A DNA stretch of 64,000 nucleotides from Rhodoferax sp. (GCF_030697375.1 NZ_JAUYQD010000009.1:1-64000); one strand, 5' to 3'; counted from the stretch's first letter, positions 5,312-32,752 are shown. Numbers and translations are program-made. The notes: generated by a model from the sequence alone, not told the origin.

Positions 5312-5363
5312 GGCATTCTCCAAATATAAACAAGGGTAAGGGGCAATGGGGCTGTGCGCGGGC

Positions 5364-7244: not shown

Positions 7245-7251
7245 GGTGCTT

Positions 7252-7266: not shown

Positions 7267-7355
7267 TAACGCATGGTAACTTGGAAACCTGATCTTGGGA
7301 ATGCCGTGAGGTTACCAACTGGGTACGAACCAGCCGCCCTGCCTATACTTGTGCT

Positions 7356-8909: not shown

Positions 8910-8914
8910 ACCAG

Positions 8915-8929
8915 GTGAATTTTATTCAC
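8915..8929. promoter_or_regulatory. LysR-type box GTGAAT-TTT-ATTCAC (contains T-N11-A)
   Basis: Perfect palindrome immediately upstream of the LysR gene start (8909) in the divergent intergenic region. Confidence 0.5.
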
Positions 8930-9039
8930 TTGTCTCTCGAATAGAAAACGATAGTCAATTCCAGTTCAACCTCGCAAAATTCAAAACAACACCCGCCCAT
9001 CATGCGAACAATTTTCATATTTCATTGCATTACCAAACC

Positions 9040-10841: not shown

Positions 10842-10973
10842 CCCGGCTCCTTTGATTAAAAATTTATTTACCGATAAAAGTTTAATTTAGTTTTGTTTAA
10901 TTAAATGCACCTTCCCGGCACACTGCAGGCATTCACGCAAAAAAAGCCTTCACCAACCGAACCGAAACCACCC

Positions 10974-15512: not shown

Positions 15513-15538
15513 GGCGAATCTCCTGTAGAGCGTCGATC

Positions 15539-15781
15539 TTAGTGCTCGTGTTTCATCCCGCAAAACTTGCCGATGGCCAGGCCTTTGCAAGCGGTTTGCA
15601 GCGCTTTGTTGCAGACCTCTTCGCCTTTGTCGGCTTCGCGGCATTTTGCGGCGTTTTCATGGGCCGCCGCGATGGCGCGGTGGCGGGCAATATCTTCCTT
15701 GGTTTCCTTGTCGGTTTCAGCTGCTATCGAAATAGTAGCTGCTTGCGCAATGAATACGAGGGCTAGAAGCATTTTTTTCAT
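15539..15781 (-). CDS. Small exported Cys/His-containing protein; signal peptide largely encoded by dispersed repeat copy A
   Basis: MKKMLLALVFIAQAATISIAAETDKETKEDIARHRAIAAAHENAAKCREADKGEEVCNKALQTACKGLAIGKFCGMKHEH*. Confidence 0.7.
   Translation of the reverse strand: MKKMLLALVFIAQAATISIAAETDKETKEDIARHRAIAAAHENAAKCREADKGEEVCNKALQTACKGLAIGKFCGMKHEH
15722..15772 (+). repeat. Dispersed repeat family R1, copy A
   Basis: tgctatcgaaatagtagctgcttgcgcaatgaatacgagggctagaagc. Confidence 0.8.
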
Positions 15782-15785
15782 AAAT

Positions 15786-16988
15786 TTACCGGGTTTGGAG
15801 AAGACTGAGAACACTGACACGAAAAGCCCCCCATGCGGGCAAGAGGGCCGCGCCGACCGACACCCCCAGCGCCAGACAGGGCACGATGAGTAACTCGGGC
15901 GGCCAGACCATGCCGCCTATGAGCAAAGAGTTGTCCAGTTGCAGCAGCCAGGCCAGCGCCGCCGCAAAGGCCTGGCCCAGCAGCAAGCCCGCCAGGGACG
16001 CCAGCAGGCCCAGCCACAGGGCCTCGCACAGCAGCAGGGCCGCCACTTTGGCCGGTGACGCGCCCAGCATGCGCAAGAGCGCCAGATCCGCACTGCGCTC
16101 CCGCACCGCGCTCCACAGGGCAATGAACACACTCAAGCCCGCGGTGAGCAGCAGCACCCCGGCAAAGGCCCGCAGCACGTCGGTGCCCAGGCCCAGCATG
16201 TTGAGCAGGCGGCTGATTTCCAGCGCCGGGGCGGCGGCCTGCATGTCGGTGCCGGTGTTGATGAAGCGCGGGAAACTCAGGGCCGCCATGGGCGTCTTGT
16301 AGCGGACCAGCGCCAGGGTGATTTCACGCTCTTCCTCCATCACCTTCCGGTCGTCCGCGTCCACCGCGGTGAAGTCTTCGTGCACTTTCCACACCGAGGC
16401 GGTGTCGGTGAGAACCAGCCGGTCCAGCACGCTGCCGCTGGGCGCCAGAATGCCCGTCACGGTGTAGCGGCTGTCGCCATGCACATGGCCACCCGCGCCC
16501 AGCCCGTGTGCGCCCACAAAGGTATGGCCCACCACCAGCCCCAGTTGGCGCGCGGCGGTGGCGCCTACCACCACCTGCATGGGCGCGTCCCACAGACTAC
16601 CCTGCGCCAGGGTGGCCTGGTAGTGGCGGATGTAGGCATGCGAGGTGCCGACGATGCGAAAACCGCGCAGGTTGTCGCCCAGGCTGATGGGGATGACGCT
16701 GTCCACCAGCGGGTGCTTCTCCAGTTCGCGCACCGCCTTCAGGGGCACATTGCCCGGTGGCACGTCGATGTGCAAGACCCCCGAGAGGATGAGTTGCATG
16801 GGGCTGCCTTTGGCCCCCACCACCACGTCGATGCCCGCCAGGTCGCGCTCGAAGGCCTTGTTCAACTGGTGCCCTACCAGCAGCAAAAAGGTGATGGACG
16901 CCAGCCCCAGGCTGAGCAGCAGCACATTGAGCGCCGCGCCCAAAGGCCGGGACCAGAGGTAACGCCAAGCAAAAAACAAAGTCTTCAT
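15786..16988 (-). CDS. FtsX-like ABC transporter permease (ZrgC-like)
   Basis: MKTLFFAWRYLWSRPLGAALNVLLLSLGLASITFLLLVGHQL...; MacB/FtsX TM arrangement; adjacent to its ATPase. Confidence 0.85.
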   Translation of the reverse strand: MKTLFFAWRYLWSRPLGAALNVLLLSLGLASITFLLLVGHQLNKAFERDLAGIDVVVGAKGSPMQLILSGVLHIDVPPGNVPLKAVRELEKHPLVDSVIPISLGDNLRGFRIVGTSHAYIRHYQATLAQGSLWDAPMQVVVGATAARQLGLVVGHTFVGAHGLGAGGHVHGDSRYTVTGILAPSGSVLDRLVLTDTASVWKVHEDFTAVDADDRKVMEEEREITLALVRYKTPMAALSFPRFINTGTDMQAAAPALEISRLLNMLGLGTDVLRAFAGVLLLTAGLSVFIALWSAVRERSADLALLRMLGASPAKVAALLLCEALWLGLLASLAGLLLGQAFAAALAWLLQLDNSLLIGGMVWPPELLIVPCLALGVSVGAALLPAWGAFRVSVLSLLQTR

Positions 16989-17042
16989 GCTACTCTTTTC
17001 ATAGCTGCTTACGCACCAAGCGCAAGGGCTGGAAGCCGATTT
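16988..17042 (+). repeat. Dispersed repeat family R1, copy B (ATPase C-terminus / permease start junction)
   Basis: tgctactcttttcatagctgcttacgcaccaagcgcaagggctggaagccgattt. Confidence 0.75.
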
Positions 17043-17667
17043 GACCATCAAATGTGGCGGGAATCAGCGCCGCCACGCGGGCGTCGTGGGTGGCAATCAC
17101 CAGGGTGGCGCCGTGGGTGCGCGCCGTGGCCAGCAGCAGGCCCACCGCATCGGCGGCGGCTTCGTCGTCCAGGCTGGCCGTGGGTTCATCGGCCAGGATC
17201 ACGCGGGGCTGCAGCAGCACGGCGCGGGCCAATGCCACGCGCTGCGCCTGGCCGCCCGAGAGCTGGGCCGGTGTGCGCTGGGCCAGCTCCTGCACGCCCA
17301 GGGCCTGCAAGGCGTCGGCAATGCGCGCGGCGTCCTCGGGCTGGCCGCTGGCCCAAAAGCCCAGGGCCAGGTTCTGCTGCACCGTCAGGGCCGCGCTCAG
17401 GTGCAATTTCTGGGGTAAAAAGCCGATAGACCGCGCCCGCCATGCGTCAGCAGCTATGTTTTTAAGAGCACCCAAGGCTTGGTCGGCCACCACCAGTTCG
17501 CCCGCCGTGGGAGCCACCAAGGCCGCCGCCAGCGCCAGCCAGGTCGATTTGCCACAGCCCGAGGGGCCGCTGAGCAGCAACACCGTGCCTTGGGCCACAT
17601 CCACATCGGGAAAGTCCAAGGTGGGGCCGCCGGGGTAGCTGTAGCGGAGTTGGCGGCTGCGGATCAT
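16999..17667 (-). CDS. ABC transporter ATPase, LolD/ZrgB-like
   Basis: LLLSGPSGCGKSTWLAL (Walker A), LSGGQAQRVALARAVLLQPRVILADEPTASLD (signature/Walker B); start overlaps the Zur-like gene end. Confidence 0.92.
   Translation of the reverse strand: MIRSRQLRYSYPGGPTLDFPDVDVAQGTVLLLSGPSGCGKSTWLALAAALVAPTAGELVVADQALGALKNIAADAWRARSIGFLPQKLHLSAALTVQQNLALGFWASGQPEDAARIADALQALGVQELAQRTPAQLSGGQAQRVALARAVLLQPRVILADEPTASLDDEAAADAVGLLLATARTHGATLVIATHDARVAALIPATFDGQIGFQPLRLVRKQL
17415..17471 (-). repeat. Dispersed repeat family R1, copy C (diverged, inside ABC ATPase)
   Basis: Minus strand tgctcttaaaaacatagctgctgacgcatggcgggcgcggtctatcggctttttac. Confidence 0.5.
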
Positions 17668-18185
17668 GCGGGCGCGCTGGTGCTTGCAGCACAGTCAATA
17701 CACAGGCCACGCACCGCAAAGTCCATGCTCATGTCCTGGTACCCCAGCGCCTTGAGCACTTCCAGCGCCATCGCAGCGGCCTTTTCCAGATCGGCGGCAT
17801 TGGCTTTCAAGGCGCCGGACAAGGGGCTGTCGCGGTGGCAGCTTTGGCATTCAAAGTGGGGAATGGCGTGCACGCTGGTTGGCATGGCCTGGTAGCGGCG
17901 CACCCGCTGGCTGTCCACGCGGCACAGCAGCAGGCCCACTTGCGTGAGCCGGTCTATCAGGCGGTACAGGGTCACGCGGTCCAAAGACACGCTGGACGCG
18001 CTGGCGCCGTCGTCGGACAAGGCCATCTGCAATTGGGCATGGGTGTAGCTGGTGTCCGGGTGGGCCAACAGCCAGCCCAGCACCAGCCGTGCGGCGGCCG
18101 TGCGGCGCAAGCCGTGGGCGGACAGCAAGGCGTCAATCGGGTCGGCCGCGGTCATCGGATGGGAGGGAGGGGTCAGGGATGCCAT
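17664..18185 (-). CDS. zur: Fur-family regulator, Zur-like
   Basis: LLSAHGLRRTAAARLVLGWLLAHPD...VTLYRLIDRLTQVGLLLC...HFECQSCH...CIDCA: Fur-family fold with CxxC metal ligands; divergent from znu genes. Confidence 0.88.
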   Translation of the reverse strand: MASLTPPSHPMTAADPIDALLSAHGLRRTAAARLVLGWLLAHPDTSYTHAQLQMALSDDGASASSVSLDRVTLYRLIDRLTQVGLLLCRVDSQRVRRYQAMPTSVHAIPHFECQSCHRDSPLSGALKANAADLEKAAAMALEVLKALGYQDMSMDFAVRGLCIDCAASTSAPA

Positions 18186-18202: not shown

Positions 18203-18217
18203 TGCAACCAAGTTGCA
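18203..18217. promoter_or_regulatory. Putative Zur box 1, TGCAACCAAGTTGCA
   Basis: Perfect palindrome TGCAAC-CAA-GTTGCA in the zur/znu intergenic region. Confidence 0.65.
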
Positions 18218-18229
18218 TAAACACAAAAA

Positions 18230-18244
18230 CGCAATCAAGTTGCG
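18230..18244. promoter_or_regulatory. Putative Zur box 2, CGCAATCAAGTTGCG
   Basis: Same motif, one arm mismatch, 27 bp from box 1. Confidence 0.6.
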
Positions 18245-18255
18245 ATAGACTATAC

Positions 18256-18270
18256 CGCAATCAAGTTGCA
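18256..18270. promoter_or_regulatory. Putative Zur box 3, CGCAATCAAGTTGCA
   Basis: Same motif, 26 bp from box 2. Confidence 0.6.
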
Positions 18271-18311: not shown

Positions 18312-18470
18312 ATGAAACCCCGCATGGCTCCCTCCCTTGCTCGTCTGAAATTCCCTGCCCCCAGCGTGCTGGCCTGGCCCGCCTGGCTGCGGGTGCTGGC
18401 CGTGGCGCCTGTACTGGCCCTGCTGTGGGGCGCGGTGCTGTGGGCGGGAATGGAGGCGGTGCCGCTATGA
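18312..18470 (+). CDS. Small single-TM protein (52 aa) leading the znu operon, absent from ORF track
   Basis: MKPRMAPSLARLKFPAPSVLAWPAWLRVLAVAPVLALLWGAVLWAGMEAVPL*; stop overlaps znuC ATG (ATGA). Confidence 0.6.
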   Translation: MKPRMAPSLARLKFPAPSVLAWPAWLRVLAVAPVLALLWGAVLWAGMEAVPL

Positions 18471-19318
18471 AAACGCATCCCGCACCCCCGCAGCCCGCCA
18501 TTGCGAGCGCAGCACCCCTGATTACACTGAATAACCTGACCGTGAGCTACCGCCAACATCCGGCCCTGCACCACATCAGCGGGCAGTTTGCGCCGGGCTC
18601 CCTGACGGCGGTCGTGGGGCCCAATGGCTCGGGCAAAAGCACCCTGCTCAAAAGCATCGTGGGCCTGCTGCCCATGGAAGGCGGCCGTTCGGGCGGCGCG
18701 CTCACCGTCAGCGCCGCATGCCAGCGCATCGCCTACCTGCCGCAACTCAGCGAGATAGACCGGGGCTTTCCCATCGACGTGCGGGACTGCGTGCTCTTGG
18801 GCTGCTGGGGCTGTGCGGGCGCATGGGGCGCTGTCAGCAGCACCCTGCTTGCGCGGGTGGATGCGGCCCTGCGGGCCGTGGGCCTGCAGGGTTTTGAGCG
18901 CCGCGCCGTGGGCACCCTCTCGGCGGGGCAACTGCAGCGCGTGCTGTTTGCCCGCATCCTGGTGCAAGACGCCCAGCTCATTTTGCTGGACGAGCCCTTC
19001 AACGCGGTGGACGCCAAAACCACGGCCAGCCTGCTGGCGCTGGTGCAGCAGTGGCACCAGGAGCGGCGCACCGTGGTGGCGGTGCTGCACGACGACGCCC
19101 AGGTGCGCCAGCATTTTCCGCAAACGCTGCTGCTGGCGCGCGAACTGGTGGGCTGGGGCCCCACCGCCGAGGTCTTGACCGAGGCCCATCTGCAGCGCGC
19201 CCGCGCCATGGCCGAGGCCTGGGACGAAACGGCGCAGGTGTGCGATACCGATACCGCGCTGGTGCAGCGTGCAGCGGCCATGCCCCACGCAGTGCACTCC
19301 CTGCATCCGGCGACCTGA
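18467..19318 (+). CDS. znuC: Zinc ABC transporter ATP-binding protein
   Basis: VVGPNGSGKSTLLKSIVGLLP; LSAGQLQRVLFARILVQDAQLILLDEPFNAVD; followed by znuB- and znuA-like genes. Confidence 0.92.
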   Translation: MKTHPAPPQPAIASAAPLITLNNLTVSYRQHPALHHISGQFAPGSLTAVVGPNGSGKSTLLKSIVGLLPMEGGRSGGALTVSAACQRIAYLPQLSEIDRGFPIDVRDCVLLGCWGCAGAWGAVSSTLLARVDAALRAVGLQGFERRAVGTLSAGQLQRVLFARILVQDAQLILLDEPFNAVDAKTTASLLALVQQWHQERRTVVAVLHDDAQVRQHFPQTLLLARELVGWGPTAEVLTEAHLQRARAMAEAWDETAQVCDTDTALVQRAAAMPHAVHSLHPAT

Positions 19319-19328
19319 GGGCTGCGTG

Positions 19329-20252
19329 ATGGATGCCCTGCTCCCTTCTGTTTGGAACGTATTGTTCGATGTGTTGATCGGCCCGTTTGCCGAATTCGCC
19401 TTCATGCGCCGCGCGCTGGTGGCCACGCTGGCGCTGTCGCTCAGCGCCGCGCCGCTGGGCGTGTTTTTGACGCTGCGGCGCATGAGCCTCATGGGCGACG
19501 CGCTGAGCCACGCAGTGCTGCCGGGGGTGGCCATCGGCTACATGGTGGCGGGTCTCTCGCTGTCGGCCATGGCGCTGGGCGGCGTGCTGGCGGGCCTGCT
19601 GGTGGTGGGCCTGGCGGGCCTCGTGAGCAAGGCCACGGCGCTCAAGGAAGATGCCAGCCTGGCGGCCATCTACCTGGTAGCGCTGGCCCTGGGTGTGACC
19701 CTGATTTCCAGGCACGGCACGCAGCTGGATTTGCTGCACATCCTCTTTGGCAGCGCGCTGGGTGTGGACCACGCCGGGCTGCTGCTGGTGGCCAGCGTGG
19801 CCACGGCGAGTGTGCTGGCCCTGGCCCTGATGTACCGCGGCCTGGTGCTGGAAAGCTTCGACCCCGTGTTTCTGAATGCCAACCGCCGTACCCGCATGGG
19901 GCGCTGGGGCAGTTGGGGCAGCTGGGTATGGCAGCAGGGCTTTTTGATGCTGGTGGTGGTGAACCTGGTGGCGGGTTTCCAAACCCTGGGCACCCTGATG
20001 GCCGTGGGCCTGATGATGCTGCCCGCCGTGTCCGCCAGGCTGTGGCACGACACGCTGCCCGCGCAGTTGCTCAACGCCAGCGCACAGGCCCTGCTGGCCG
20101 GCGTGGCCGGGCTGTTGCTGTCCTACCACCTGGACACGCCCTCGGGCCCCACCATCATCGGCTGCGCGGGGGCACTGTACTTCGGCTCACTGCTGCTGGC
20201 GCCCGGCGGCTGGCGGCCCCGCTGGTGGACCACGCCGCACCGGGTGGCCTAA
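19329..20252 (+). CDS. znuB: Zinc ABC transporter permease
   Basis: MRRALVATLALSLSAAPLGVFLTLRRMSLMGDALSHAVLPGVAIGYMVAG, ABC-3 family. Confidence 0.93.
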   Translation: MDALLPSVWNVLFDVLIGPFAEFAFMRRALVATLALSLSAAPLGVFLTLRRMSLMGDALSHAVLPGVAIGYMVAGLSLSAMALGGVLAGLLVVGLAGLVSKATALKEDASLAAIYLVALALGVTLISRHGTQLDLLHILFGSALGVDHAGLLLVASVATASVLALALMYRGLVLESFDPVFLNANRRTRMGRWGSWGSWVWQQGFLMLVVVNLVAGFQTLGTLMAVGLMMLPAVSARLWHDTLPAQLLNASAQALLAGVAGLLLSYHLDTPSGPTIIGCAGALYFGSLLLAPGGWRPRWWTTPHRVA

Positions 20253-20325: not shown

Positions 20326-21243
20326 ATGCACCCTACCCGTCGTCTTCTTGTGGCCAGCAGCCTGGCCCTGGCATTTTTCACCCACGGCGGCGCCGCTGCG
20401 GCCGACAAAATTCCCGTCACCGCCAGTTTCAGTATCTTGGGCGACCTGGTGCGCGTGGTCGGTGGCGAGCGCGTGGCGCTCACCACCCTGGTGGGTCCGG
20501 ACGAAGACGCCCACACCTTTGCGCCCAAACCGTCGGATGCCAAAGCCCTGCTGAACACCCGGCTCCTGGTCACCAACGGCCTGGGTTTTGAGCCCTGGGC
20601 GCAGAAGCTGGCCAAGTCGGCTGGCTACAAAGGCGACACCGTGATCGCCTCCAAGGGCGTGCCAGCGCGCCACATGGCCCCCGAAAAAGGCCAGGGCGGC
20701 CACGCCCACGCGGAAACCGATCCCCACGCCTGGCAAAACCCCCACAATGTGGTGATCTATGTGCGCAACATCGCCACGGGCTTGTCCAAGGTGGACCCCA
20801 GCGGCACCAGCAGCTACCAAGCCAACGCCGAGGCCTATGTGAAAGAACTGCTGGCCCTGGACACCTGGGCCCAAGCGCAGTTTTCCGGCATTGCCGTGGC
20901 CAAGCGCAAAGTCATCACCTCGCACGACGCGTTTGGCTACTTTGGAGCGCATTACCAGATCACCTTCCTCGCCCCCCAGGGTGTGAGCACCGAAGCCGAG
21001 CCCAGCGCCAAGCAGGTGGCGCAGCTCATCCGCCAAATCCAGCGTGAAAAAATCCGCGCCGTGTTTGTGGAGAACATGAGCAACCCCAAGCTGGTTGCGC
21101 AACTCAGCAAGGACGCTGGCGCCACCGTGGGGGCCAGCCTGTACTCCGATGCCCTGTCGGGCGCCGACCAGCCGGGTGCGACCTACTTGCAAATGGTGCG
21201 CCACAACGTCACACAACTGGCCGCCGGCATGCGGTTGAACTGA
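20326..21243 (+). CDS. znuA: Zinc-binding periplasmic protein
   Basis: Signal peptide; LVGPDEDAHTFAPKPSDAKAL, GGHAHAETDPHAWQNPHNVVIYV: SBP cluster A-I metal-binding His motifs. Confidence 0.93.
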   Translation: MHPTRRLLVASSLALAFFTHGGAAAADKIPVTASFSILGDLVRVVGGERVALTTLVGPDEDAHTFAPKPSDAKALLNTRLLVTNGLGFEPWAQKLAKSAGYKGDTVIASKGVPARHMAPEKGQGGHAHAETDPHAWQNPHNVVIYVRNIATGLSKVDPSGTSSYQANAEAYVKELLALDTWAQAQFSGIAVAKRKVITSHDAFGYFGAHYQITFLAPQGVSTEAEPSAKQVAQLIRQIQREKIRAVFVENMSNPKLVAQLSKDAGATVGASLYSDALSGADQPGATYLQMVRHNVTQLAAGMRLN

Positions 21244-21250
21244 CAGGCAT

Positions 21251-21314
21251 GTTGCTATCAAATAGATAGCTGTTCACACATATTCCACAAGGGCTTGAGG
21301 CCTAAAACACGCTT
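21251..21314 (+). repeat. Dispersed repeat family R1, copy D (intergenic znuA / TonB receptor)
   Basis: gttgctatcaaatagatagctgttcacacatattccacaagggcttgaggcctaaaacacgctt. Confidence 0.75.
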
Positions 21315-21361
21315 AACACGCTTTAGGCGTGAGGACTCAGGCCGCAACCCGTTCCCGCACG

Positions 21362-23626
21362 ATGTTCAACACGCAAACCCCCATCCGCCGCCCTGGCGTG
21401 GTTCCGCAACGCACGGCCCTGGTCGTGGCGCTCATGGGCGCTTTCTCTTCGACGGCCCTGGCCCAGCCCACCACCAACACCCTGAAACCTGTAGTGATCA
21501 CCGCCACCCGCTCGGCCCTTGAGGTGTCCGATGCACCTGCGGCGGTATCGGTCGTGACAAGCCAGGAAATTGGGAGCAGGAACGTCTCTCGCATCAGCGA
21601 TGCCTTGCAAAAGGTTCCCGGCCTGTACCTCGGTCGCGGGGAAAACGGCCAAAGCAACTCCAGCGAAGGCGGCTTTTCGCTGCGCGGCATGAGCACCAAC
21701 CGGACCCTGGTTCTGCTGGACGGGCTGCAGCCGCTGCAAAACGCCAATTCGCAGGGGGTCAACTGGCTGACCGTTTTTGTGGACGACGTGGAGCGCGTCG
21801 AGGTGGTGCCCGGCGCCTTCGCCTCCCTGTATGGCAGCAATGCCATGGGGGGCGTGGTCAACGTCATCAGCAAGCGCCCCACGCAGCATGAGCTGACGGT
21901 GCGTTTGAAAAGAGGTTTTGCCGATGCGGCTGGCACAGACGCCAGCGTCTACTTTCGGGACCAACTCGCCAGCGGCCTGGGCATCACCGCCGGCCTCAGC
22001 CGCAACGAGCGCGAAGGGTATGCCAGCGAACGCACCGTGCGCACACCCGTGGGTGGCGCGCCGGGCACACCCGTCGATGGCGCCCTGCCCACCACCACCC
22101 GCGAGGGCGTTCCGGCTTACATCGTTGGCGACAAAGGTGCGCAGCCCTGGCAACAAAGCCATGCCATGGTCAAGCTCAGCTACGACCTCTCGGCGACTGA
22201 TCGCGTCTATGCAGGCTTGGCCCATGCCGACATGCGCACCGGTTTTAGCCGTTTCAACAGCTACCTCACCAACAGCGCGACGGGTGCCTCGGTGTCCAGT
22301 GGCACGCTGGGCATCAATGGCCAACGGGTCACGCTGACGGAAAGCAATTTTGTCGGCTCCACCCCGTCCACCGATTCCAGCAAACGCTATTTCGCAGGCT
22401 ACGAAGGGCTGCTGGGCAAAGATCTGAAGTTGAACGTGGATCTGGCGCGCATGGACCGCCAGTTCAACTTCCCCACCATCGGCACAGGCGCCACCTGGAA
22501 TGCAGGGCCGGGCAGCCTCTCAGACGCACCCAACAGCAGCCTCGACGGCACGGCAACACTTAGTTTTCCCCTGGGTGCCCAGCACTTCGTGGTCACCGGT
22601 GTTGCGCTGCACCGCGATACGGTGGAACGGCGCAGCTATGCCTTGGCGAACTGGCGCGCCCCGGACACCAGGACCACGATCAACGGGGGCTACAACGGCA
22701 GCTCCACCACGACATCGGTGTTCGCACAAGACGAGTTCGCGCTGACCGAGCGCCTGACCCTCTACACCGGCGCACGCCTGGACCGCTGGGAAACGCAGGG
22801 TGATTTTTTCCAGAATACGGCACCGGCCAGCACGGCAAGCTACGCCCCACGCGCTGAAACCGCCTTCAACCCCAAGGTATCCGGGGTGTACAAGCCCGAT
22901 GACGCCGTGACACTGCGGGCCTCTTGGGGGCAATCGTTCCGGGCGCCGTCCAACCTCGATCTGTATTCGACCACCGTGCAGAACTCCTCGGTTTCACCCA
23001 CCGGGCTGCTGACCATTCAGAGTGACCCCGGCATCAAGCCCGAGCGTGGCACGAGTTGGGAACTGGGCGGCGAATGGCGTTTGGCTGAGGGGCTTAAAAC
23101 CACGGCCACTTACTATGAGACCCGCCTGAGAGACATGATCTACTCCAAGCAGATCGACCTGTCACTCACGCAGCGTATCAATGCTGGCCAAGCGCAGGTC
23201 AAGGGCGTGGAGTGGGGTCTGACGGCGAAGCTGGCACCGTGGCTCGAATGGAGTACCCATCTGTCGTGGATTGATTCTGAAATTCTTGACAACAGCGCGG
23301 ACCCGGCCAGTGTGGGCAAGCGCCTGACGCAAGTGCCCGCCAAATTGGCCTACCTGGGACTGCGCGCCGCGCAGGGCGCATGGTCAGGAACACTGGAAGC
23401 GCGCTACACGGACCAGACCCATATCACCGCGCAAAACACCGACACCGTGCAAGGGGTGCCTGGCAGCAACGATGCCTACACCATGGTCAACCTCCAGGCG
23501 GGCTACCAGTGGAACAAGACCATGCGTTTGAATCTGGCCGTCAACAACGTGCTGGACCGGCCGGTCTACCTGTTTGCCAAGCTGCCAGGGCGCAATGCCA
23601 CGGCGGAACTGGTACTGTCGTTTTGA
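21362..23626 (+). CDS. TonB-dependent receptor (HmuR/BtuB-like)
   Basis: Signal peptide, TonB box LKPVVITATRS, plug domain and barrel ending AELVLSF; ATG at 21362 preferred. Confidence 0.93.
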   Translation: MFNTQTPIRRPGVVPQRTALVVALMGAFSSTALAQPTTNTLKPVVITATRSALEVSDAPAAVSVVTSQEIGSRNVSRISDALQKVPGLYLGRGENGQSNSSEGGFSLRGMSTNRTLVLLDGLQPLQNANSQGVNWLTVFVDDVERVEVVPGAFASLYGSNAMGGVVNVISKRPTQHELTVRLKRGFADAAGTDASVYFRDQLASGLGITAGLSRNEREGYASERTVRTPVGGAPGTPVDGALPTTTREGVPAYIVGDKGAQPWQQSHAMVKLSYDLSATDRVYAGLAHADMRTGFSRFNSYLTNSATGASVSSGTLGINGQRVTLTESNFVGSTPSTDSSKRYFAGYEGLLGKDLKLNVDLARMDRQFNFPTIGTGATWNAGPGSLSDAPNSSLDGTATLSFPLGAQHFVVTGVALHRDTVERRSYALANWRAPDTRTTINGGYNGSSTTTSVFAQDEFALTERLTLYTGARLDRWETQGDFFQNTAPASTASYAPRAETAFNPKVSGVYKPDDAVTLRASWGQSFRAPSNLDLYSTTVQNSSVSPTGLLTIQSDPGIKPERGTSWELGGEWRLAEGLKTTATYYETRLRDMIYSKQIDLSLTQRINAGQAQVKGVEWGLTAKLAPWLEWSTHLSWIDSEILDNSADPASVGKRLTQVPAKLAYLGLRAAQGAWSGTLEARYTDQTHITAQNTDTVQGVPGSNDAYTMVNLQAGYQWNKTMRLNLAVNNVLDRPVYLFAKLPGRNATAELVLSF

Positions 23627-26600
23627 GAGCACACCCCGGTTGGGCTCACCGTCAGGCCCGTGGCTGGCTGCATCGCCTGTGCGCATCGTTGCGCCTTTGG
23701 GGCGGCGCCCTGCTGCTGTTCGCATTGCCATTCGCACCCGTGGTGCACGCCCGCAGCATTGTGCTCATTCCCGGTGATCAGGCCACACAGGCCATGGTGG
23801 CTGCGGTGAAATTGCTCAAGGCCGATCCCGTGCTGGAATCCCTGACGTTTCGCATCGTGCCGCAGTCGCTGCTGGACCCGACCGACCTCGTGGCGCTGGA
23901 AAAAGCGGACATTGTTTTTGCGCGTCACCTGGTCGGCGCAGTGGGGGAGCGAGTCACGTCTGCCATGCAGGCCGTTGCAGCACGGGGCCACCGTATCTAT
24001 GGCACAGGGCAAAACGAGGGTGCCTCGGCCAAGCTGGGGCTGCGTGAAGACCTGGCCTTGCGCGCCTATGCCGACGCGGGTGGTGCAGAGAATCTGGCCA
24101 ACATGGTCCGCTTCGCGTTGAAGCGCGACTACGGCTATGCCATCTCCGCTGCGCCGCCCCGTGCGCTGCCTCAGGTGGCGGCCTTGAACCACCGCACCGG
24201 GCAACTGTTCGAGACCTTTGAAGACTATGCCGCCAGCTACCTGGCGCAGCGCCTCCCCACGCCCGCCAATACGCCGGCCGGTGCCGCTGCAAGACCCTGG
24301 GTGGGCGTGGTGCTCAGCCGGGGGCAGGCCATCGACGGCTTGGGTGAAAACATCCAAGCCATCGCCGATGCGCTGGAACACCGTGGATTCAACGTGCTTC
24401 CGGTCTACGGTTTTCCCTCCACCGTGCCGGTAGAGCGCTTTTTTCTGGACAGCACCGGACGCCCCCATGTGGCAGCCGTCGTCGCACTGGCCATGAAGCT
24501 GGGTAACGTGCCCGACAAAATTATTCCGCTGCTGGAGCGCCTGAACGTTCCCTTGGTCAACGGGATTGTTCTGTACAAGGCCACGCACCAGGAATGGGAG
24601 AACTCCCCGCTTGGCCTGGACCACAACGAACGCAGCTGGCAAGTCGGGGGGCCGGAACTGGCGGGCATCGTCGCCCCCACCGTCGTGGCCAGCAAAGAGC
24701 GCCGCAAGGACAAAGACACCGGACTGGAGTACGTGGCCGAAGTCCCCATCCCGGAGCGTATAGGCCGCCTGGCGGACCGCGTTCGCAAACTGGTGGATTT
24801 GCGGGTGTTGCCACCACAGGACAAACGCATTGCCATCGTTTACTACAACCAGCCCGCAGGGGCTGAAAACGTGGGCGCTTCGTACCTCAATGTGCTGCCG
24901 CGCTCGCTGTGGCACATCGCCAAACGCCTCGAAGCGGAAGGCTACAACGCCCAAGGCCTGCCCCCCAGCGAAGCGGGCCTGTTCGACCGGCTTCACACCC
25001 ATGGCACCAACATAGCCGACAGCACGCCGGGCGCGCTGGCAGAGCGCGTGCGCAGCGGTGAGGCCCTGCTGCTGCCCATGGCGGACTACCGGCGCTGGTT
25101 TGATGCCCAGCCCAAGGCACTGCGCGACAGCATGGTCAAGTCCTGGGGCGAGCCGGAGAACTTCAAATCCATGGTCTGGCGCGACCCCCAGGGCAAGGCG
25201 TACTTTGTGTTTGCGGCACAGCGCTTTGGCAACCTGCTGTTTGCACCGCAACCGGTGCGCGGCTGGGGTGACGTTAAAAAGATGTACCACGACGTGACAC
25301 TGGCGCCCCACCACCAGTACCTGGCGTTTTACCTGTGGCTGCAAAAAGGCTTTCAGGCCCATGCCATGGTGCACGTGGGCACCCACGGCACCCATGAGTG
25401 GTTGCCCGGCAAGGAGGTAGGCTTCACACCCGCCGACCCCAGCGAGGCCATGGTGGGCGCTATTCCGCAGGTCTACCCTTACAGCGTCGATGTGGTGGGC
25501 GAAGGCTTGCAGGCCAAACGACGCGGCATGGCCACACTGATCTCGCACATGACGCCCCCGTTTGACAGCGCGGGCTTGAGCCCGGACTTGGTGAAGCTGC
25601 ACGGCCTGTTTGAAGACTATGGCGTGGCCAAGCAACAAAGCGAATCCGCAGCCGCCGCCACACTCCATGACATCAACCGCCAAGCTGGCAAGATGGGCTT
25701 GCTCAAAGATCTGGGCAGGCCAGCGCTGCACACCGCCGAAGACATTGAGGCTTTGCACGACTACCTGCACGACATCGAAGACACACAAACCCCGTTTGGC
25801 CTGCACACCTTTGGCGTGGCCCCATCAGAAGCCTTGCGCCGCAGCACGGCGGACGCCATGGTGGATCGCATGGGCGCCATGATGCCAGCCGAATTTGAGA
25901 AGCGCGTTGAAGCACTCTCAGAACGCATGGTAAGCAGCGCCAAGGCCGAGCTGGATGCCCTGGTGGCCGCCCTGGCGGGTCGCTACGTGGCCGCCGGGCC
26001 GGGCGGCGACCCCTTGCGAAGCCCTGCCTCCTTGCCCACGGGCAAGAACATCTATGGTTTTGACCCCTCCCGCATTCCGGCACCGGGCGTGTATGAGCAA
26101 GGCGCTGCGCTGGCAGAGACTTTGCTCAAAGACTACCGCCAACGCAAAGGCCAGTACCCCGACCGGCTGCTGTTTAACCTGTGGTCCGGGGAAACCATGC
26201 GCCATGGCGGCGTGCTGGAATCCCAAATACTGGCGCTGATGGGGGTGCGGCCCGTGTGGGACACGTTTGGCCGGATTGCCGATGTGGAGTTGATCCCGCG
26301 CACCCAGTTGGGCCGTCCGCGCGTGGACGTGGTCATCACCCCCTCCGGGCTGTACCGGGATTCCTTGCCCACGCTGATGCTCTTGCTGGACAAAGCCGTC
26401 AACATGGTCAAAGACCAGCCCGAGGCCGACAACCCAATACGTGCCCATGTGCTGGCCGCCCGCAAGGCCTTGGAAGACCGGGGCGTCCCGCCCGAACTGG
26501 CGGCACGCATGGCCGCCGTTCGCCTGTTCACCGACCCGCCGGGTGCGTACGGTACGGGGCTGGACAACGTGGTTCGGGCCAGCAACAGCTGGAGCCAGGA

Positions 26601-27660
26601 GGGGCAGATTGCCGATGTGTATTTCAAACGCATGGGGCATCTGTTTGGGCAAGGCTTTTGGGGGGATTCCCCCGGTGCAGGTGCTGCCAGCGGCGGTGAA
26701 GGTGCAGAACTCGCGGTGGATGTGTTCAAAATGGCCTTGAAGGATGTCAAAGCGGTGCTGCATTCGCGCGCCAGCAATCTCTACGGCACACTGGACAACG
26801 ACGACGTGTTCCAGTTTCTCGGTGGCGCGGCCCTGGCCGTGCGGCAGGTCAATGGCAGCACCCCCGAGACGCTGCTGGTCAACCTGGCCGATCTTTCCAG
26901 GACGCGCACAGAAACGCTGGACCAGTTCATGGGCCGTGAGATGCACACACGCTACCTCAACCCCAGTTGGATCAAAGCCATGCTGGGCGAAGGTTATGCC
27001 GGCGCGCGCTTTGTCATGCAAGTCACCGACAACCTTTGGGGCTGGCAAGTCACCGTGCCCGAGGCGGTGGACGGCGCCAAGTGGCAAGCCATGTTTGAGA
27101 CCTATGTGCAGGACAAGCACCAGCTCGACATCCGGCAAAAGTTCCGCGATGCCAAGAACATGCGGGCTTTTCAGGCCATGGTGGACCGCATGCTGGTCGC
27201 TGTGAACAAAGGCTACTGGAAAGCCGATGCCGTGACGGTCGCCGCACTGGAAGCCGCCAATCTGGAAGCCATTCAAGAGGCCGGTGTGGCCTGCGATGCC
27301 GACAGTTGCAGCAGCGAAAACATCACCCGGATGGCGCAAGCACAGGACCGTCAAGCCCTGCGGCAAGCCCAGGCGGGTTTTGGACTCGAACGTTCCAGTG
27401 CGCTGGCAACGGCCGTGGCCAAGGCGCCAGCGCAGGCGCTAGACCAACCCCGGCCGCCAGCCCCACGTCCGCTCCCAGCGCCTGAGGTGGTGCGTGGACA
27501 AGAAATGCGTGAAGTCAAAAAAGAACCGCATGCCGAGCAATTGGTCTGGATTTATGCGGGGCTGATCGCCCTGGCCGTGCTGGGTGGCATGGGCTACCAG
27601 GCCTGGCGCACACGGCGTGAATCCGGCGCCCGAACACCTCCTTCAACCCTCTCACAGTGA
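23623..27660 (+). CDS. CobN/Mg-chelatase H-like protein, secreted and membrane-anchored (HmuS-like)
   Basis: HVGTHGTHEWLPGKEVGFTPADPSEAMVGAIPQVYPYSVDVVGEGLQAKRRGMATLISHMTPPF = CobN family; putative TTG start overlapping the receptor stop gives a signal peptide (LWGGALLLFALPFAPVVHA); C-terminal TM LVWIYAGLIALAVLGGMGYQAW. Confidence 0.88.
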   Translation: MRAHPGWAHRQARGWLHRLCASLRLWGGALLLFALPFAPVVHARSIVLIPGDQATQAMVAAVKLLKADPVLESLTFRIVPQSLLDPTDLVALEKADIVFARHLVGAVGERVTSAMQAVAARGHRIYGTGQNEGASAKLGLREDLALRAYADAGGAENLANMVRFALKRDYGYAISAAPPRALPQVAALNHRTGQLFETFEDYAASYLAQRLPTPANTPAGAAARPWVGVVLSRGQAIDGLGENIQAIADALEHRGFNVLPVYGFPSTVPVERFFLDSTGRPHVAAVVALAMKLGNVPDKIIPLLERLNVPLVNGIVLYKATHQEWENSPLGLDHNERSWQVGGPELAGIVAPTVVASKERRKDKDTGLEYVAEVPIPERIGRLADRVRKLVDLRVLPPQDKRIAIVYYNQPAGAENVGASYLNVLPRSLWHIAKRLEAEGYNAQGLPPSEAGLFDRLHTHGTNIADSTPGALAERVRSGEALLLPMADYRRWFDAQPKALRDSMVKSWGEPENFKSMVWRDPQGKAYFVFAAQRFGNLLFAPQPVRGWGDVKKMYHDVTLAPHHQYLAFYLWLQKGFQAHAMVHVGTHGTHEWLPGKEVGFTPADPSEAMVGAIPQVYPYSVDVVGEGLQAKRRGMATLISHMTPPFDSAGLSPDLVKLHGLFEDYGVAKQQSESAAAATLHDINRQAGKMGLLKDLGRPALHTAEDIEALHDYLHDIEDTQTPFGLHTFGVAPSEALRRSTADAMVDRMGAMMPAEFEKRVEALSERMVSSAKAELDALVAALAGRYVAAGPGGDPLRSPASLPTGKNIYGFDPSRIPAPGVYEQGAALAETLLKDYRQRKGQYPDRLLFNLWSGETMRHGGVLESQILALMGVRPVWDTFGRIADVELIPRTQLGRPRVDVVITPSGLYRDSLPTLMLLLDKAVNMVKDQPEADNPIRAHVLAARKALEDRGVPPELAARMAAVRLFTDPPGAYGTGLDNVVRASNSWSQEGQIADVYFKRMGHLFGQGFWGDSPGAGAASGGEGAELAVDVFKMALKDVKAVLHSRASNLYGTLDNDDVFQFLGGAALAVRQVNGSTPETLLVNLADLSRTRTETLDQFMGREMHTRYLNPSWIKAMLGEGYAGARFVMQVTDNLWGWQVTVPEAVDGAKWQAMFETYVQDKHQLDIRQKFRDAKNMRAFQAMVDRMLVAVNKGYWKADAVTVAALEAANLEAIQEAGVACDADSCSSENITRMAQAQDRQALRQAQAGFGLERSSALATAVAKAPAQALDQPRPPAPRPLPAPEVVRGQEMREVKKEPHAEQLVWIYAGLIALAVLGGMGYQAWRTRRESGARTPPSTLSQ

Positions 27661-27669
27661 AAACGAAAA

Positions 27670-28203
27670 ATGAACAGCATTGAAAGCCTTTTGTACGAGA
27701 TATCCAAGTTCTTCCTCGCCCCGGTGCTCATCTTGCTGTGTGTGATGTTTGTTTATGCGCTGTTCTGCCTGGGCATGTTGCTGTTTGACCTGGCGTTGCG
27801 CGTGTTGCGTGGCCATGGCCGGCAACCCATTGCCCACTTTTTGCGCACCAAGCCCACCGCCACCCAGGACGATCTGGAACTGCAAGTACTGAAACAAATC
27901 GAGGTCCAGCGCATCGTCAGCCGTATTGCGCCCATGCTGGGCCTGGTTGCCACCATGATCCCCATGGGCCCGGCCTTGATATCGGTCTCGGCAGGCAATG
28001 CCCAGGGCATGGCACAGAATCTGGTCGTGGCCTTCTCGGCAGTCATCGTGGCGCTGTTGTCAGCCGCCATCACCTACGTCGTGCAATTGGTTCGCAAACG
28101 CTGGTTACTGGAAGAACTTGGCCTGGTGCTGGATCGCCGCGCGGACAGGCAAAACGCCGTGGGCACTGAAACCGTGCATCTGGCAGGAGCGCTACATGGC
28201 TGA
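27670..28203 (+). CDS. MotA/TolQ/ExbB-family proton channel subunit (HmuU-like)
   Basis: 177 aa; RIAPMLGLVATMIPMGPALISVSAGNAQGMAQNLVVAFSAVIVALLSAAITYVV. Confidence 0.88.
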   Translation: MNSIESLLYEISKFFLAPVLILLCVMFVYALFCLGMLLFDLALRVLRGHGRQPIAHFLRTKPTATQDDLELQVLKQIEVQRIVSRIAPMLGLVATMIPMGPALISVSAGNAQGMAQNLVVAFSAVIVALLSAAITYVVQLVRKRWLLEELGLVLDRRADRQNAVGTETVHLAGALHG

Positions 28204-28582
28204 ATCTGCTTTGCCGGCCATGCGCCGCCCCATGAACATCAACATTCTGGAGGACGACGATGGCGACGATCCGATTTTGAGCGTGGTGAACATCGTGGAC
28301 GTGTTCCTGGTGATCATCGCGGTGCTGCTGATCGCCGTGATTGAAAATCCGCTCAACCCCTTTGCAACGCAGGATGTCATCGTCATCAAGAATCCCGGCA
28401 AGCCCGACATGGGCATGGTGGTCAAAGAGGGCAATGAACTCAAGGAATACAAGTCTTCCGGGCAGATAGGCGAAGGACAAGGAGCCAAGGCCGGCACTGC
28501 CTACAGGCTAAAAAATGGCACCATGGTGTATGTACCTGAAACCGAGGGCCCCAGGCCCCAGAAGCCGGCAGGCCCATCCTGA
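28196..28582 (+). CDS. DUF2149 protein, ExbD-like topology (HmuV-like)
   Basis: ILEDDDGDDPILSVVNIVDVFLVIIAVLLIAVIENPLNPF...; single N-terminal TM with Asp as in ExbD/TolR; overlaps the ExbB-like gene. Confidence 0.85.
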   Translation: MAESALPAMRRPMNINILEDDDGDDPILSVVNIVDVFLVIIAVLLIAVIENPLNPFATQDVIVIKNPGKPDMGMVVKEGNELKEYKSSGQIGEGQGAKAGTAYRLKNGTMVYVPETEGPRPQKPAGPS

Positions 28583-28606
28583 TGGCGCCCATGGAGAACC
28601 AAAGCC

Positions 28607-28688
28607 TATAATTCAACGCGCTATCGCCCGTCTAAGGGCGATGGAGCAAACGGACTACCCAAGTCGAAAGCACCGTAAGGTCTGACGG
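28607..28688 (+). other. Candidate structured 5' leader / RNA: TATAAT followed by three consecutive hairpins
   Basis: TATAAT 28607-28612; stems ATCGCCC/GGGCGAT (28623-28642), GACT/AGTC (28653-28665), CCGT/ACGG (28673-28688). Confidence 0.3.
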
Positions 28689-28735
28689 AAATCGAGTATC
28701 AGCCCCTCTCGCGCAGCACACACCACTGGCCTACC

Positions 28736-30952
28736 GTGCCTCAGACCACTACCCCACGCAAACGCAAAGCCCCCCCGCAGGCGAACCGGCCCGTAAAAGC
28801 ACGCACGCGGGCACGGCAAACGCCAGTGGCGGATGCGCCTTCGCCGCAGGCGGAGCCGGGCCACGAAGCATCCAGCCCCACCACCACCCTGGGTGCGGTG
28901 CGCGCCGGGGGCATGCGGCTGCTGCGCGGCGCCAAGGACCTGGCCAAACAAACCGCACAGTTACCGGGCTCGACTGCCCGGGTGGCCGCTGCGTTTGTAC
29001 CTCTGACGCGCCTGCTGGGCGGAGAAACCCACATCACGGACGCCCAATTCAGCCGGGAAATCGACCGCATATTTGCCGCCCTGTACGAGCACCCGCTGAC
29101 CGAGCAAACCCGGCGCATCACCACCTACCTGCGTTCGCGCAATGTGCTGCCCAACGAGGGCTCCACCGAGAGCCTGATTCGCTACGTGGTAAATGAGTCG
29201 GTGTCGCGCTCGCCGATTCCGGTGCCGCAGCAGATCATTGATGAGTTCTGGACCTTTTTCCATGAACTGATGTCCGACCCCGAGCTACGCGGCCTGGCCG
29301 ACCTGGGGCTGGACATCACGCGCCTGCTCCTCAAAACCTACGAGCCCCTGTTGGTGGAGGTGATCAACGAGCTGAAGGATATTTTTTACTCCAACCAGAA
29401 CCGCATGGACGCATTGCTGCGCCGGGTTCAGGTGGTGCGCAGCGACCTGCAGATCATCCGCCGCCAGATCAAGGCGCTGCGCTACATCCGGCCCTTTTTT
29501 CAGGCCGACCCCAAGGACTACCGTGCCCAGGCCCAGATCGTGGCGCAAATGGTGCGCGAGTTCGGCCCTTTCTTCATCAAGATGGCCCAGGTGGCGGCGG
29601 CCACCGCCGACTTTTTGCCCGAGGAAATTGCCCGGGAGCTGGCGGTTTTTCAGGAAGACGTGCCGCCCATGTCGGCGCAGGAGGCCAGAGCCGCCCTGAT
29701 GGACAGTTTTGGCCGACCGCCGGAAGAGATCTACTTCGGCTTTGATGCGGAGCATCCCATCAAATCGGGCTCCATCGGCTCGGTCTACCTGGCCAAAAAG
29801 CCGGTCATGATCCGTGACGTGGAGCACCTGATTCCGGTCATCATCAAAATCGGGCGGCACAACCTGGACCGCGAATTCCTGATGGGCAAAACCTCCATCG
29901 GGCTGATGCTGGTATCCAGCCAGTACTGGGCACCGCACAGCAAACTGACGCCTTTTTTGAAGGCGATGACGGAACAGATTGACGGTTTCATCGAAGGTTT
30001 TCGCGGTGAACTGCAGTTTGAGCGCGAGGCCCAGGTGCAAGCCAGCTTTTCGCGACGGGCCCAGAACAGCCAAATCTGGCGCGTGCCCGAGGTCTACAAG
30101 GCCACGGAACGCGTGATCGAAATGGAATACGTTGAAGGCGCAGTGAACATCTCCCGCGCCGCCCAGCACTTCAAGCCCCGCGACCCGATTGCGTACCGGC
30201 GCGATCTGGCCAAGAAATTTTTGTTCACCATCCTCAGCCAGATTTTTGTCTTTCAGGAGGTCCATGGTGACCTGCACCCCGGCAATGTGATGGTCGACAA
30301 GGACAGCCGCCTGCACCTGATCGACTGGGGCAACACCATCCAGCTGGCGGGCAAAATGCTGCCCGTGCTCAATTACCTGAAAGGGGCGCTGGTGGCCAAC
30401 CCCGACATGCTGACCGACTCCCTGATCGCCATCTGCACCGACCCCGAGGCCGCCAAGGCCCGGCGCACCGAAATCCGTGAAGCGCTGGTGCGCACCCTGG
30501 ACAAAAAGAACATCCGCCCTCTGTCATATGACTTTGCCTGGATGCTGTACCAGGAAGGCCCCGAAGGCTGGCTCAAACGGGCCAATACGCTGATGCACCT
30601 GATGTCCAACACGCAGCAACTGGGGCTGGTGGTTCGGGGCGAATACCTGCACCTGTCGCGCTCCTTCGTGGCCATGGTCGCCACCCTGGGCAGCCTGTAC
30701 GACGGCGTGCCGCGTTACCGGGCACTGGCCGATATTCTGATCACCATCAACAGCTTTCCGGCGCGTTTGCTGCAGGACTTTTTGCGCAGCAAGAAAACGG
30801 AGATTCGCCACATGGCGGGTGCACTGGCACGCCGGGCGGTGTTCGCCGCCCCCAAAGCTGCCAAACCAGCGTCACCAACGGCAGCCAAAACACCCGCAGC
30901 GCCCGCCCGCCGCACGCCATCCAAGCGCCGGGCAACGGTGCAAAAAATTTGA
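28736..30952 (+). CDS. AarF/ABC1/UbiB-family protein kinase-like protein (GTG start)
   Basis: GSIGSVYLAKKPV, EVHGDLHPGNVMVDKDSRLHLIDWGNTIQL = ABC1/UbiB family motifs. Confidence 0.9.
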   Translation: MPQTTTPRKRKAPPQANRPVKARTRARQTPVADAPSPQAEPGHEASSPTTTLGAVRAGGMRLLRGAKDLAKQTAQLPGSTARVAAAFVPLTRLLGGETHITDAQFSREIDRIFAALYEHPLTEQTRRITTYLRSRNVLPNEGSTESLIRYVVNESVSRSPIPVPQQIIDEFWTFFHELMSDPELRGLADLGLDITRLLLKTYEPLLVEVINELKDIFYSNQNRMDALLRRVQVVRSDLQIIRRQIKALRYIRPFFQADPKDYRAQAQIVAQMVREFGPFFIKMAQVAAATADFLPEEIARELAVFQEDVPPMSAQEARAALMDSFGRPPEEIYFGFDAEHPIKSGSIGSVYLAKKPVMIRDVEHLIPVIIKIGRHNLDREFLMGKTSIGLMLVSSQYWAPHSKLTPFLKAMTEQIDGFIEGFRGELQFEREAQVQASFSRRAQNSQIWRVPEVYKATERVIEMEYVEGAVNISRAAQHFKPRDPIAYRRDLAKKFLFTILSQIFVFQEVHGDLHPGNVMVDKDSRLHLIDWGNTIQLAGKMLPVLNYLKGALVANPDMLTDSLIAICTDPEAAKARRTEIREALVRTLDKKNIRPLSYDFAWMLYQEGPEGWLKRANTLMHLMSNTQQLGLVVRGEYLHLSRSFVAMVATLGSLYDGVPRYRALADILITINSFPARLLQDFLRSKKTEIRHMAGALARRAVFAAPKAAKPASPTAAKTPAAPARRTPSKRRATVQKI

Positions 30953-30953
30953 T

Positions 30954-32684
30954 TTATTTGGAGCGCAAGATGATCCGGGCATGGTCGTTGATGCCCATCA
31001 CGCTGAAAAACGCCGCCACCAGACGTGGCACGTCAAAGAACTGAACCTGGCACCCCTGCGATTCCTGCTCGGCCACCCAGTTGAGGATGCTTCCTGCGGC
31101 TGAAAAGTCGACACGAATCAGTTTGGCACACGAAATCACAAGGGTATCGTGCTCCTTCAATCCCCGCTGAAGCCGGTTCAGCGCCTCCACCGCGTCACCC
31201 AGCACCTGCCCGGTCAGCTCGACCACCGCCTCAAGGGGTTCGAAATCCATTTCCTCCAAAGGCGTATCTACCCGGGGCTGGGTGGCATGCACCCGTTCGC
31301 ACACACAGTCACATCGTGCGTCGGCCCAGGCGGGCGGAGACACCTCGTAAAGCAAGCAAAAATCCATCGCCACTGCCTCAAACGCGTCCTGCAATTTCAG
31401 GATGCGCAAGGCGTCGAGCCGAACACGCCACCAAATAGGGTCCACCCTTTTGTCTGCTGCGGGTGTCGCGATTTTTAATGTTTTTTCGAGGGCTTCCTCT
31501 CCGGAAAAATACAGCTGAAGGGGTTGCACACACCACTGGCCGAACAGGCCTTCCAACTCCTTGACCGCATCAGGCTGAATCAACTTGAGCGAATGCCAAT
31601 TCAAATGTAGGGGCGCCTTGTTGTTCAACTGTGTGGCACGCAAGGTCTGTATGGCAGCCAGGTCAAGCGCTGCCGGGCACTCCCATACGCGCGCTCCGCT
31701 GGGACCAGTCAACGTGGCGGTGTCCGGCGCTGCGGCCACCGTTTTGTTGGCAAGCAGCTCGGGAGTGGAAAACCACTCGGGCGGGGAACGCCCAAAACGC
31801 TGGGCATAGTCCATGGCGACCACATCAAAACTGGCCTGCTGGCCGGTGGCGCGGTACAAATCGAACAGGGCTGCGGCACATCCGGCGGCAGACTCGGATT
31901 GCTCCGTATCCGCCTGCAGCATGGCCAGCAAAATCCCCTCGGCCCCCTCTTCATCGCCATCGGCAAATCGGATGGCGGCCTCCTGTAAGTCCGGGTCCCC
32001 CAGGCCCTGCCCCAATTCGACCGACATCAACTTGGAATTGGAAAACCCACTGATGCCCGCCTCAAAACTGCTGTGTCGCGAATTTCGGAATGCCGTGACC
32101 TGCGGTGGTACCTGCGGTGGAGGTGCATTTGCGGGTCCCAGGTCGGTGGGTACAAGCAAATCCATTTGGGTGGATTCCGCCTCTGCGCCGTGCAATGGGT
32201 CTCCTGCGGGGTCGGTTGCGGGCACATGAATCGGGGCATAGGCTGTGGTGCGCACCGGCGCGGCCGAAGCAAGAACCGGTTTGGGATGGGCAGGCGCAGG
32301 CCCCCTTGGGGCGGCAGCATCACTTTGCTTGAGTTCAAACCAGTGCCGGGACAGTTGGGCTTCAATGGCATCAATTTTCTTGACCGTCAGTGCCCGCTCT
32401 TCCGGGTTGAACCCCACACTGCTCTGGAACTCCACCCGTTGACCGGCGACATAGCGCCCCGTCAAAGGGCCATCGTTGCGCAGTTTGCGCAAATGGTTGA
32501 ATTCCCGCCGCCGAATGGCATCGTCCTGGCGCTTGCGTTCAATTCGCTCTTTAAGCGCCAATTTGTTGAATTCACTCTCCCGCCCCATGGCAGACACCTC
32601 GGAATCGAGCGTGTCCTGTGCTGGCCTGCGGATCAGCTTGACCATTCTGGCCAGCAATCCGTTGTTGTTATCTTTTGTCACCAT
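30954..32684 (-). CDS. STAS-domain containing protein
   Basis: C-terminal LTGQVLGDAVEALNRLQRGLKEHDTLVISCAKLIRVDFSAAGSILNWV resembles MlaB/STAS; 576 aa. Confidence 0.7.
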   Translation of the reverse strand: MVTKDNNNGLLARMVKLIRRPAQDTLDSEVSAMGRESEFNKLALKERIERKRQDDAIRRREFNHLRKLRNDGPLTGRYVAGQRVEFQSSVGFNPEERALTVKKIDAIEAQLSRHWFELKQSDAAAPRGPAPAHPKPVLASAAPVRTTAYAPIHVPATDPAGDPLHGAEAESTQMDLLVPTDLGPANAPPPQVPPQVTAFRNSRHSSFEAGISGFSNSKLMSVELGQGLGDPDLQEAAIRFADGDEEGAEGILLAMLQADTEQSESAAGCAAALFDLYRATGQQASFDVVAMDYAQRFGRSPPEWFSTPELLANKTVAAAPDTATLTGPSGARVWECPAALDLAAIQTLRATQLNNKAPLHLNWHSLKLIQPDAVKELEGLFGQWCVQPLQLYFSGEEALEKTLKIATPAADKRVDPIWWRVRLDALRILKLQDAFEAVAMDFCLLYEVSPPAWADARCDCVCERVHATQPRVDTPLEEMDFEPLEAVVELTGQVLGDAVEALNRLQRGLKEHDTLVISCAKLIRVDFSAAGSILNWVAEQESQGCQVQFFDVPRLVAAFFSVMGINDHARIILRSK

Positions 32685-32752
32685 GGTTTAGTCTACCGCG
32701 CGCAAGGCAGTTTGGGGCCCAAGTCACCGAAGGTGTAACACTCTGTAACCAT

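Follow-up and report, generated by a model that had tools for sequence, protein, structure and literature searches.

The four genes that follow znuCBA in a 64,000-nucleotide stretch of Rhodoferax sp. DNA (hereafter the window) raise the question of which metal they handle, in what form it is taken up, and how a metal-chelatase outside the cytoplasm could be driven. The original prediction described them as an HmuR-S-U-V-like set of a TonB receptor, a secreted and anchored CobN-like protein, an ExbB-like protein and a DUF2149 protein. This gene set was confirmed, with all four genes exceeding the curated Pfam cut-offs:

21362-23626, plus strand: TonB-dependent receptor, CirA-like (Plug PF07715 and beta-barrel PF00593)
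23623-27660, plus strand: predicted secreted CobN-like class I chelatase subunit, 1345 aa from TTG (PF02514, E = 1.6e-297)
27670-28203, plus strand: ExbB-like motor protein (PF01618, 26.0 bits vs. a cut-off of 22.9)
28196-28582, plus strand: DUF2149 protein, a putative ExbD-like partner with Asp35 in its single transmembrane segment (PF09919, E = 1.2e-27)

The best PDB match of the receptor was the colicin I receptor (2hdf), and the start of the CobN-like gene overlaps the receptor stop by 4 bases. The topology of the CobN-like protein was derived from a hydropathy scan and the sequence alone, and comprises two elements:

23623-23751, plus strand: predicted signal peptide, with predicted cleavage between VVHA and RS
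27541-27597, plus strand: predicted C-terminal membrane anchor LVWIYAGLIALAVLGGMGY, followed by a basic tail

The hydrophobic leader and the C-terminal segment bear out the predicted periplasmic location, and the leader also stands as part of the proposed TTG start with signal peptide; the exact start codon is less certain, as TTG at 23623 is plausible (not proven) and a second TTG at residue 23 would yield an equally good signal peptide. C-terminal hydrophobic segments are common across the chelatase family and were absent in the control CobN and ChlH proteins (true ones, from loci annotated as cob and bch), which makes a periplasmic, membrane-tethered chelatase the natural reading.

Homology to the CobN family would allow for a cytoplasmic cobaltochelatase of B12 synthesis, which is exceedingly improbable given the predicted signal peptide and anchor, the missing partners and the profile scores. 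The window protein reached 857 bits vs. 1248 (NF004644) and 580 vs. 822 (TIGR02257) for the CobN equivalogs, and it stayed under all NCBIfam equivalog cut-offs for CobN and ChlH/BchH. Profiles for CobS (TIGR01650) and Cob-chelat-sub (TIGR02442) gave sub-threshold matches only in the whole host genome (5.78 Mb, 99.99% complete), so that no AAA+ partner of a known kind is evident; by these two profiles, the lack of a CobS/CobT or ChlI/D partner, originally noted for the window, holds genome-wide. Like those of CobNST and ChlHID, the protein is a class I chelatase large subunit, and with CobN it shares an active-site Asp, whereas those systems are cytoplasmic and ATPase-driven and the window chelatase is predicted to be secreted, anchored, and accompanied by the ExbB-like/DUF2149 pair. 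Only two PF02514 proteins are encoded in the genome, both of the secreted type and both adjoining DUF2149. The second belongs to a paralogous module on contig C98 (65926-74050; locus L032, 5923-14048, minus strand) that consists of receptor, CobN-like protein, ChaN-type heme-binding protein, ExbB-like protein and DUF2149. It adjoins NnrS and SsuAB-like transporter genes and looks iron or heme related. A Halobaculum CobN was set aside, as it lies in an ordinary B12 locus.

HmuS, a demonstrated heme de-chelatase (PMC12583661), was the best PDB match of the window chelatase (9d26, E = 7.7e-149), and the HmuS-defining features were taken from the same publication for comparison. Three sites of the window protein were located for this purpose:

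25384-25386, plus strand: His588, which corresponds to catalytic His538 in HmuS, kept by all members in every clade tabulated
26800-26805, plus strand: Asp1060-Asp1061 by alignment, the second corresponding to His1209 in HmuS
27292-27309, plus strand: Cys1224/Cys1229 pair, found in 5/5 members of the window chelatase clade and rare elsewhere

The HFG(T/A)HG motif around His538 is present as HVGTHG (Phe to Val), and the signal peptide and C-terminal anchor of HmuS have their predicted counterparts. The motif LSLDHxxEFMGG is replaced by LDNDDVFQFLGG, with His1209 changed to Asp1061 and Glu1212 to Gln1064. At the positions of the heme ligands Met79 and His254 (head/neck interface) the window protein has Leu and Leu, and a second alignment with HmuS revealed neither a Met/His ligand pair nor an HGR motif. 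The Met-rich insertion in domain IV, at least 22 residues long in HmuS, is reduced to 12 residues with 2 Met; the same columns hold 170 residues with 30 Met in Prevotella HmuS. Because Met79, His254, the Met-rich insert, His1209 and Glu1212 are missing, the protein is not a bona fide HmuS: as far as alignment can tell, it has the HmuS scaffold but lies outside HmuS proper, and the membership implied by the original prediction fails on several family-defining features, with only the superfamily His, the signal peptide and the anchor retained. Compared with HmuYRSTUV of Bacteroidota, the window likewise has a TonB receptor, a membrane-anchored class I chelatase with the catalytic His, an ExbB-like protein and DUF2149; it differs by lacking HmuY, HmuT, the ligands of heme site 1, the Met-rich insertion and the second His, and by a zinc setting instead of an iron setting. 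A role as an HmuS-family heme de-chelatase would agree with the PDB match, the common architecture and the conserved His. It is nevertheless quite improbable in view of the replaced residues and the Zur context described below, and the separate module of the same genome is the one with a ChaN heme-binding gene. The His/Asp difference as a sign of porphyrin vs. corrin substrate was dropped: Asp also occurs in a module bearing HmuY (L033) and is hence not diagnostic of the substrate.

The association of the motor pair was surveyed in about 1,070 genomes, which yielded 80 loci with the DUF2149 profile as the sole criterion; these loci are related and do not count as independent events. CobN-like genes were present in 77/80, ExbB-like genes in 79/80 and TonB receptors in 71/80 loci, indicating that the motor goes with the chelatase. 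The one locus devoid of an ExbB-like gene (L051) is itself a sub-threshold match beside ordinary ExbB and ExbD genes. In two loci (L106 and L113), the fetched 20 kb showed the ExbB-like gene and DUF2149 and no CobN-like gene; these may be orphan motors or degraded loci. At the residue level, the DUF2149 transmembrane segment keeps Asp35 in 78/79 and Asn32 in 79/79 sequences, and the ExbB-like channel residue Thr95 was found in 90/90. ExbB homology of the ExbB-like protein is clear from profile comparison (MotA_ExbB over cut-off; hhalign 95.5% to ExbB), in line with its earlier assignment to the ExbB/TolQ type. The proposed similarity of DUF2149 to ExbD is upheld by the conserved transmembrane Asp and weak by sequence otherwise (hhalign 42% over 20 columns; phmmer E = 0.63 to ExbD 5sv1), so that homology is suggestive. 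AlphaFold2 models of the two window proteins, built with one relative (L004), were too weak to lend support (pLDDT 50 for DUF2149 and 68 for the ExbB-like protein), and a fold search with the latter model returned nothing at E <= 0.001.

An alternative role of the pair would be to energise the receptor, with the CobN-like protein merely binding or storing metal in the periplasm. The frequent receptor gene and the clear ExbB homology would suit this proposal, which is nonetheless improbable: DUF2149 has no TonB domain, six further MotA/TolQ/ExbB loci exist in the host genome, and linkage is tighter to CobN than to the receptor. A canonical ExbB-ExbD-TonB set moreover accompanies the pair in some loci (L027, L033, L103 and L137), which argues against equating the pair with it. 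A further point against the receptor role is that Methanosarcina acetivorans, which is not known to have an outer membrane, has matches to DUF2149, MotA_ExbB and PF02514 (scored for presence in the genome). The tight linkage of DUF2149 and the ExbB-like protein to a secreted CobN-like protein fits, as a genomic pattern, a proton motive force that would replace the AAA+ ATPase, without being proof of it. That the motor is tied to the chelatase and not only to the receptor also bears on the ExbB and DUF2149 genes of hmu operons and of PA1922-PA1925 of Pseudomonas aeruginosa.

The metal was approached via the genes and sites upstream of the module, which are as follows (starts of ZnuC and ZnuB are approximate):

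17664-18185, minus strand: putative Zur-like Fur-family regulator (FUR PF01475, E = 0.017, below cut-off; PDB Fur-family match, E = 0.0016)
18204-18269, between zur and znuC: three tandem candidate operators GCAAYCAAGTTGC at 18204, 18231 and 18257
18467-19318, plus strand: ZnuC-like ABC ATPase (PF00005)
19326-20252, plus strand: ZnuB-like permease (ABC-3, PF00950)
20326-21243, plus strand: ZnuA zinc-binding protein (PF01297, E = 2e-84)
21244-32752: segment that L173 (same genus) and L176, two of the relatives sampled, lack

The zur-like gene has 14 orthologues in the sampled family (53-84% identity), which lie beside the same ABC/FtsX genes and are mostly divergent from znuCB. Elsewhere in the genome (5.8 Mb), GCAAYCAAGTTGC has a single further perfect copy, on contig C98, which was rejected as an operator because it falls in coding sequence. 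The relaxed motif GCAAYNNNRTTGC was detected in 27/30 fetched zur loci of the family, often paired about 26 bp apart, and the closest 15 zur loci contained 30 occurrences vs. 0.15 expected from mononucleotide shuffles. Beyond zur, an ABC ATPase, a MacB/FtsX-like permease and a DUF3299 protein follow in the window (14997-17667, minus strand), and the majority of the family's zur loci show this zur-ABC-FtsX linkage.

No Zur operator was found directly upstream of the receptor, so that Zur control of the module would depend on read-through from znuCBA; a scan of 21150-28750 found no sigma-70-like promoter. In L173 and L176, msrA follows znuA after about 0.2-0.3 kb, where the window has 11.5 kb including the module, and DUF2149 was absent from the three same-genus genomes sampled, which makes the module an accessory segment behind znuCBA. 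The same inserted segment contains an ABC1/UbiB-like kinase gene and a STAS-domain protein (28736-32684), with no evident link to the module.

Modules of this zinc-regulated kind are already known from P. aeruginosa PA1922-PA1925, described in 2015 and left with a role to be determined by the original authors (PMC4542158). That operon has a TonB receptor, a CobN-like protein, an ExbB/ExbD-family protein and DUF2149 (PA1925; PMC9431628) in the identical order and likewise in a zinc/Zur setting. It differs in being a Zur-controlled operon of its own, whereas the window module is joined behind znuCBA. Expression of PA1922-PA1925 rises 45- to 147-fold when znuA is mutated, a Zur site lies upstream (PMC4542158), Zur binds the PA1922 promoter in EMSA (PMC8531726), and a review suspects the operon of non-chelated zinc import (PMC10393844). 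Together, the candidate operators and this precedent strengthen the zinc connection that the original prediction had drawn from adjacency to znuCBA. The overall interpretation given there is partly supported; PA1922-PA1925, the second paralogous module, the class under cobalamin riboswitches and the mixed origin described below were not mentioned in it.

Our preferred reading, held tentatively and with less than even confidence, is an accessory metal-scavenging operon under the control of zinc starvation. The receptor would bring a metal chelate in, the anchored periplasmic chelatase would remove the metal from it at the His588 centre, and the ExbB-like/DUF2149 pair would serve as a proton-driven motor devoted to opening and closing the chelatase, i.e., would play the part that CobST or ChlID ATPases have in the cytoplasm. 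The metal set free (zinc most likely) would then pass to the neighbouring ZnuA and ZnuBC. Sequence and comparison provide the gene content, the predicted topology, the placement behind znuCBA and the Zur operators, the linkage between motor and chelatase genes and the retained superfamily His; the direction of the reaction, the chelate (possibly a tetrapyrrole), the identity of the metal and the energy coupling are what we infer here. If true, a chelatase cycle driven by proton motive force would be a new way to energise the removal of metals from tetrapyrroles or other chelates.

Sequence relationships within the module complicate the zinc reading. The closest relatives of the receptor (46.6% identity), the ExbB-like protein (68%) and DUF2149 (76%) were those of locus L102 (for the motor also L103), in which two tandem Zur-type operators precede a COG0523 GTPase, a receptor, a CobN-like gene, ExbB and DUF2149. 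The chelatase was closest to those of Azonexus L004 (60%), Trichlorobacter L027 (46%) and L137 (37%), with 36% identity to L102. In trees, the chelatase grouped with L004, L027, L137 and L029, and ExbB and DUF2149 grouped with L102 and L103. AU tests rejected forcing the chelatase with L102 and L103 (p-AU 3e-86), the motor with L004 and L027 (p-AU 9e-73) and the motor with the whole chelatase clade (p-AU 2e-5); the groups were picked after the similarities were known, so that these p values are overstated, and the likelihood gaps are large. Because the AU tests reject a common history of chelatase and motor, the operon is, on this phylogenetic evidence, a chimera of a chelatase from a cobalt/cobamide-regulated lineage and a receptor and motor from a zinc-locus lineage.

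Each of the three nearest chelatase relatives lies under a cobalamin riboswitch. In Azonexus L004 (2688-16953), the riboswitch is followed by nrdA, receptor, ExbB, DUF2149 and CobN, with nrdB downstream. Trichlorobacter L027 is plasmid-borne, in the company of cobT and bzaF; its riboswitch directly precedes the receptor, as does that of L137, where CbiZ, CbiK and periplasmic binding proteins are encoded. The L137 locus (2331-13734) holds a CobN-like protein, a class II CbiK chelatase, a binding protein-CbiZ fusion, DUF2162, ExbB-like/DUF2149 and canonical ExbB-ExbD-TonB. The window chelatase shares the Cys pair with these modules, whose setting is a riboswitch vs. the Zur setting of the window and whose receptor and motor belong to another lineage. 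This kinship points to cobalt or cobamides and against zinc, and the second active-site residue, Asp as in CobN and not His, was also counted against the zinc reading. The leading rival, which both points favour, is the import of cobalt or a cobalt-tetrapyrrole that stands in for zinc in zinc starvation, with a chelatase that keeps its ancestral cobalt/corrinoid substrate. Cobalt does rise in the P. aeruginosa znuA mutant (PMC4542158) and mitigates zinc starvation (PMC13083405). We nonetheless regard this rival as rather unlikely, since receptor and motor are kin of the Zur-operator locus and not of the cobalamin loci, no riboswitch was found in the window, and the module is placed behind znuCBA.

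Cobalamin-box sites were present upstream of many related modules, and Infernal identified cobalamin riboswitches in 7/7 loci of a first set and 4/7 of a second; a third set of seven loci (ChaN, HmuY and related groups) gave 0/7. Some modules lie within hmu operons, and one adjoins an HmuY gene in a genome from the same class as the window. Outside Bacteroidota, locus L033 encodes an HmuY-family protein (7353-8519, minus strand) beside its CobN-ExbB-DUF2149 module. This range of settings (riboswitch, Zur, hmu and hydrogenase) suggests different metals for different modules. CobN-ExbB-DUF2149 could accordingly form a general class of periplasmic (de-)chelatases driven by proton motive force for iron, cobalt, zinc and perhaps nickel, of which the window would be a zinc version with a cobalt-lineage chelatase and a zinc-lineage motor and receptor; we consider this generalisation possible and somewhat doubtful. 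If true, this would make HmuS one example of a broader class of metal strippers that free-living bacteria employ.

The remaining hint at nickel comes from Runella L029 only, where the module (361-14619, on a plasmid) lies in a NiFe-hydrogenase maturation operon, flanked by hypF and hypC (a single case). The same locus encodes a membrane protein weakly like NicO where others have DUF2162. For Azospirillum L030, nickel had been considered because of the adjacent nikR and was discarded, as a cobalamin riboswitch lies between DUF2149 and its ABC transporter. At a locus with a cobalamin-type module, a Guanidine-III riboswitch match (L110:14210-14276, minus strand) barely exceeded the threshold and possibly arose by chance.
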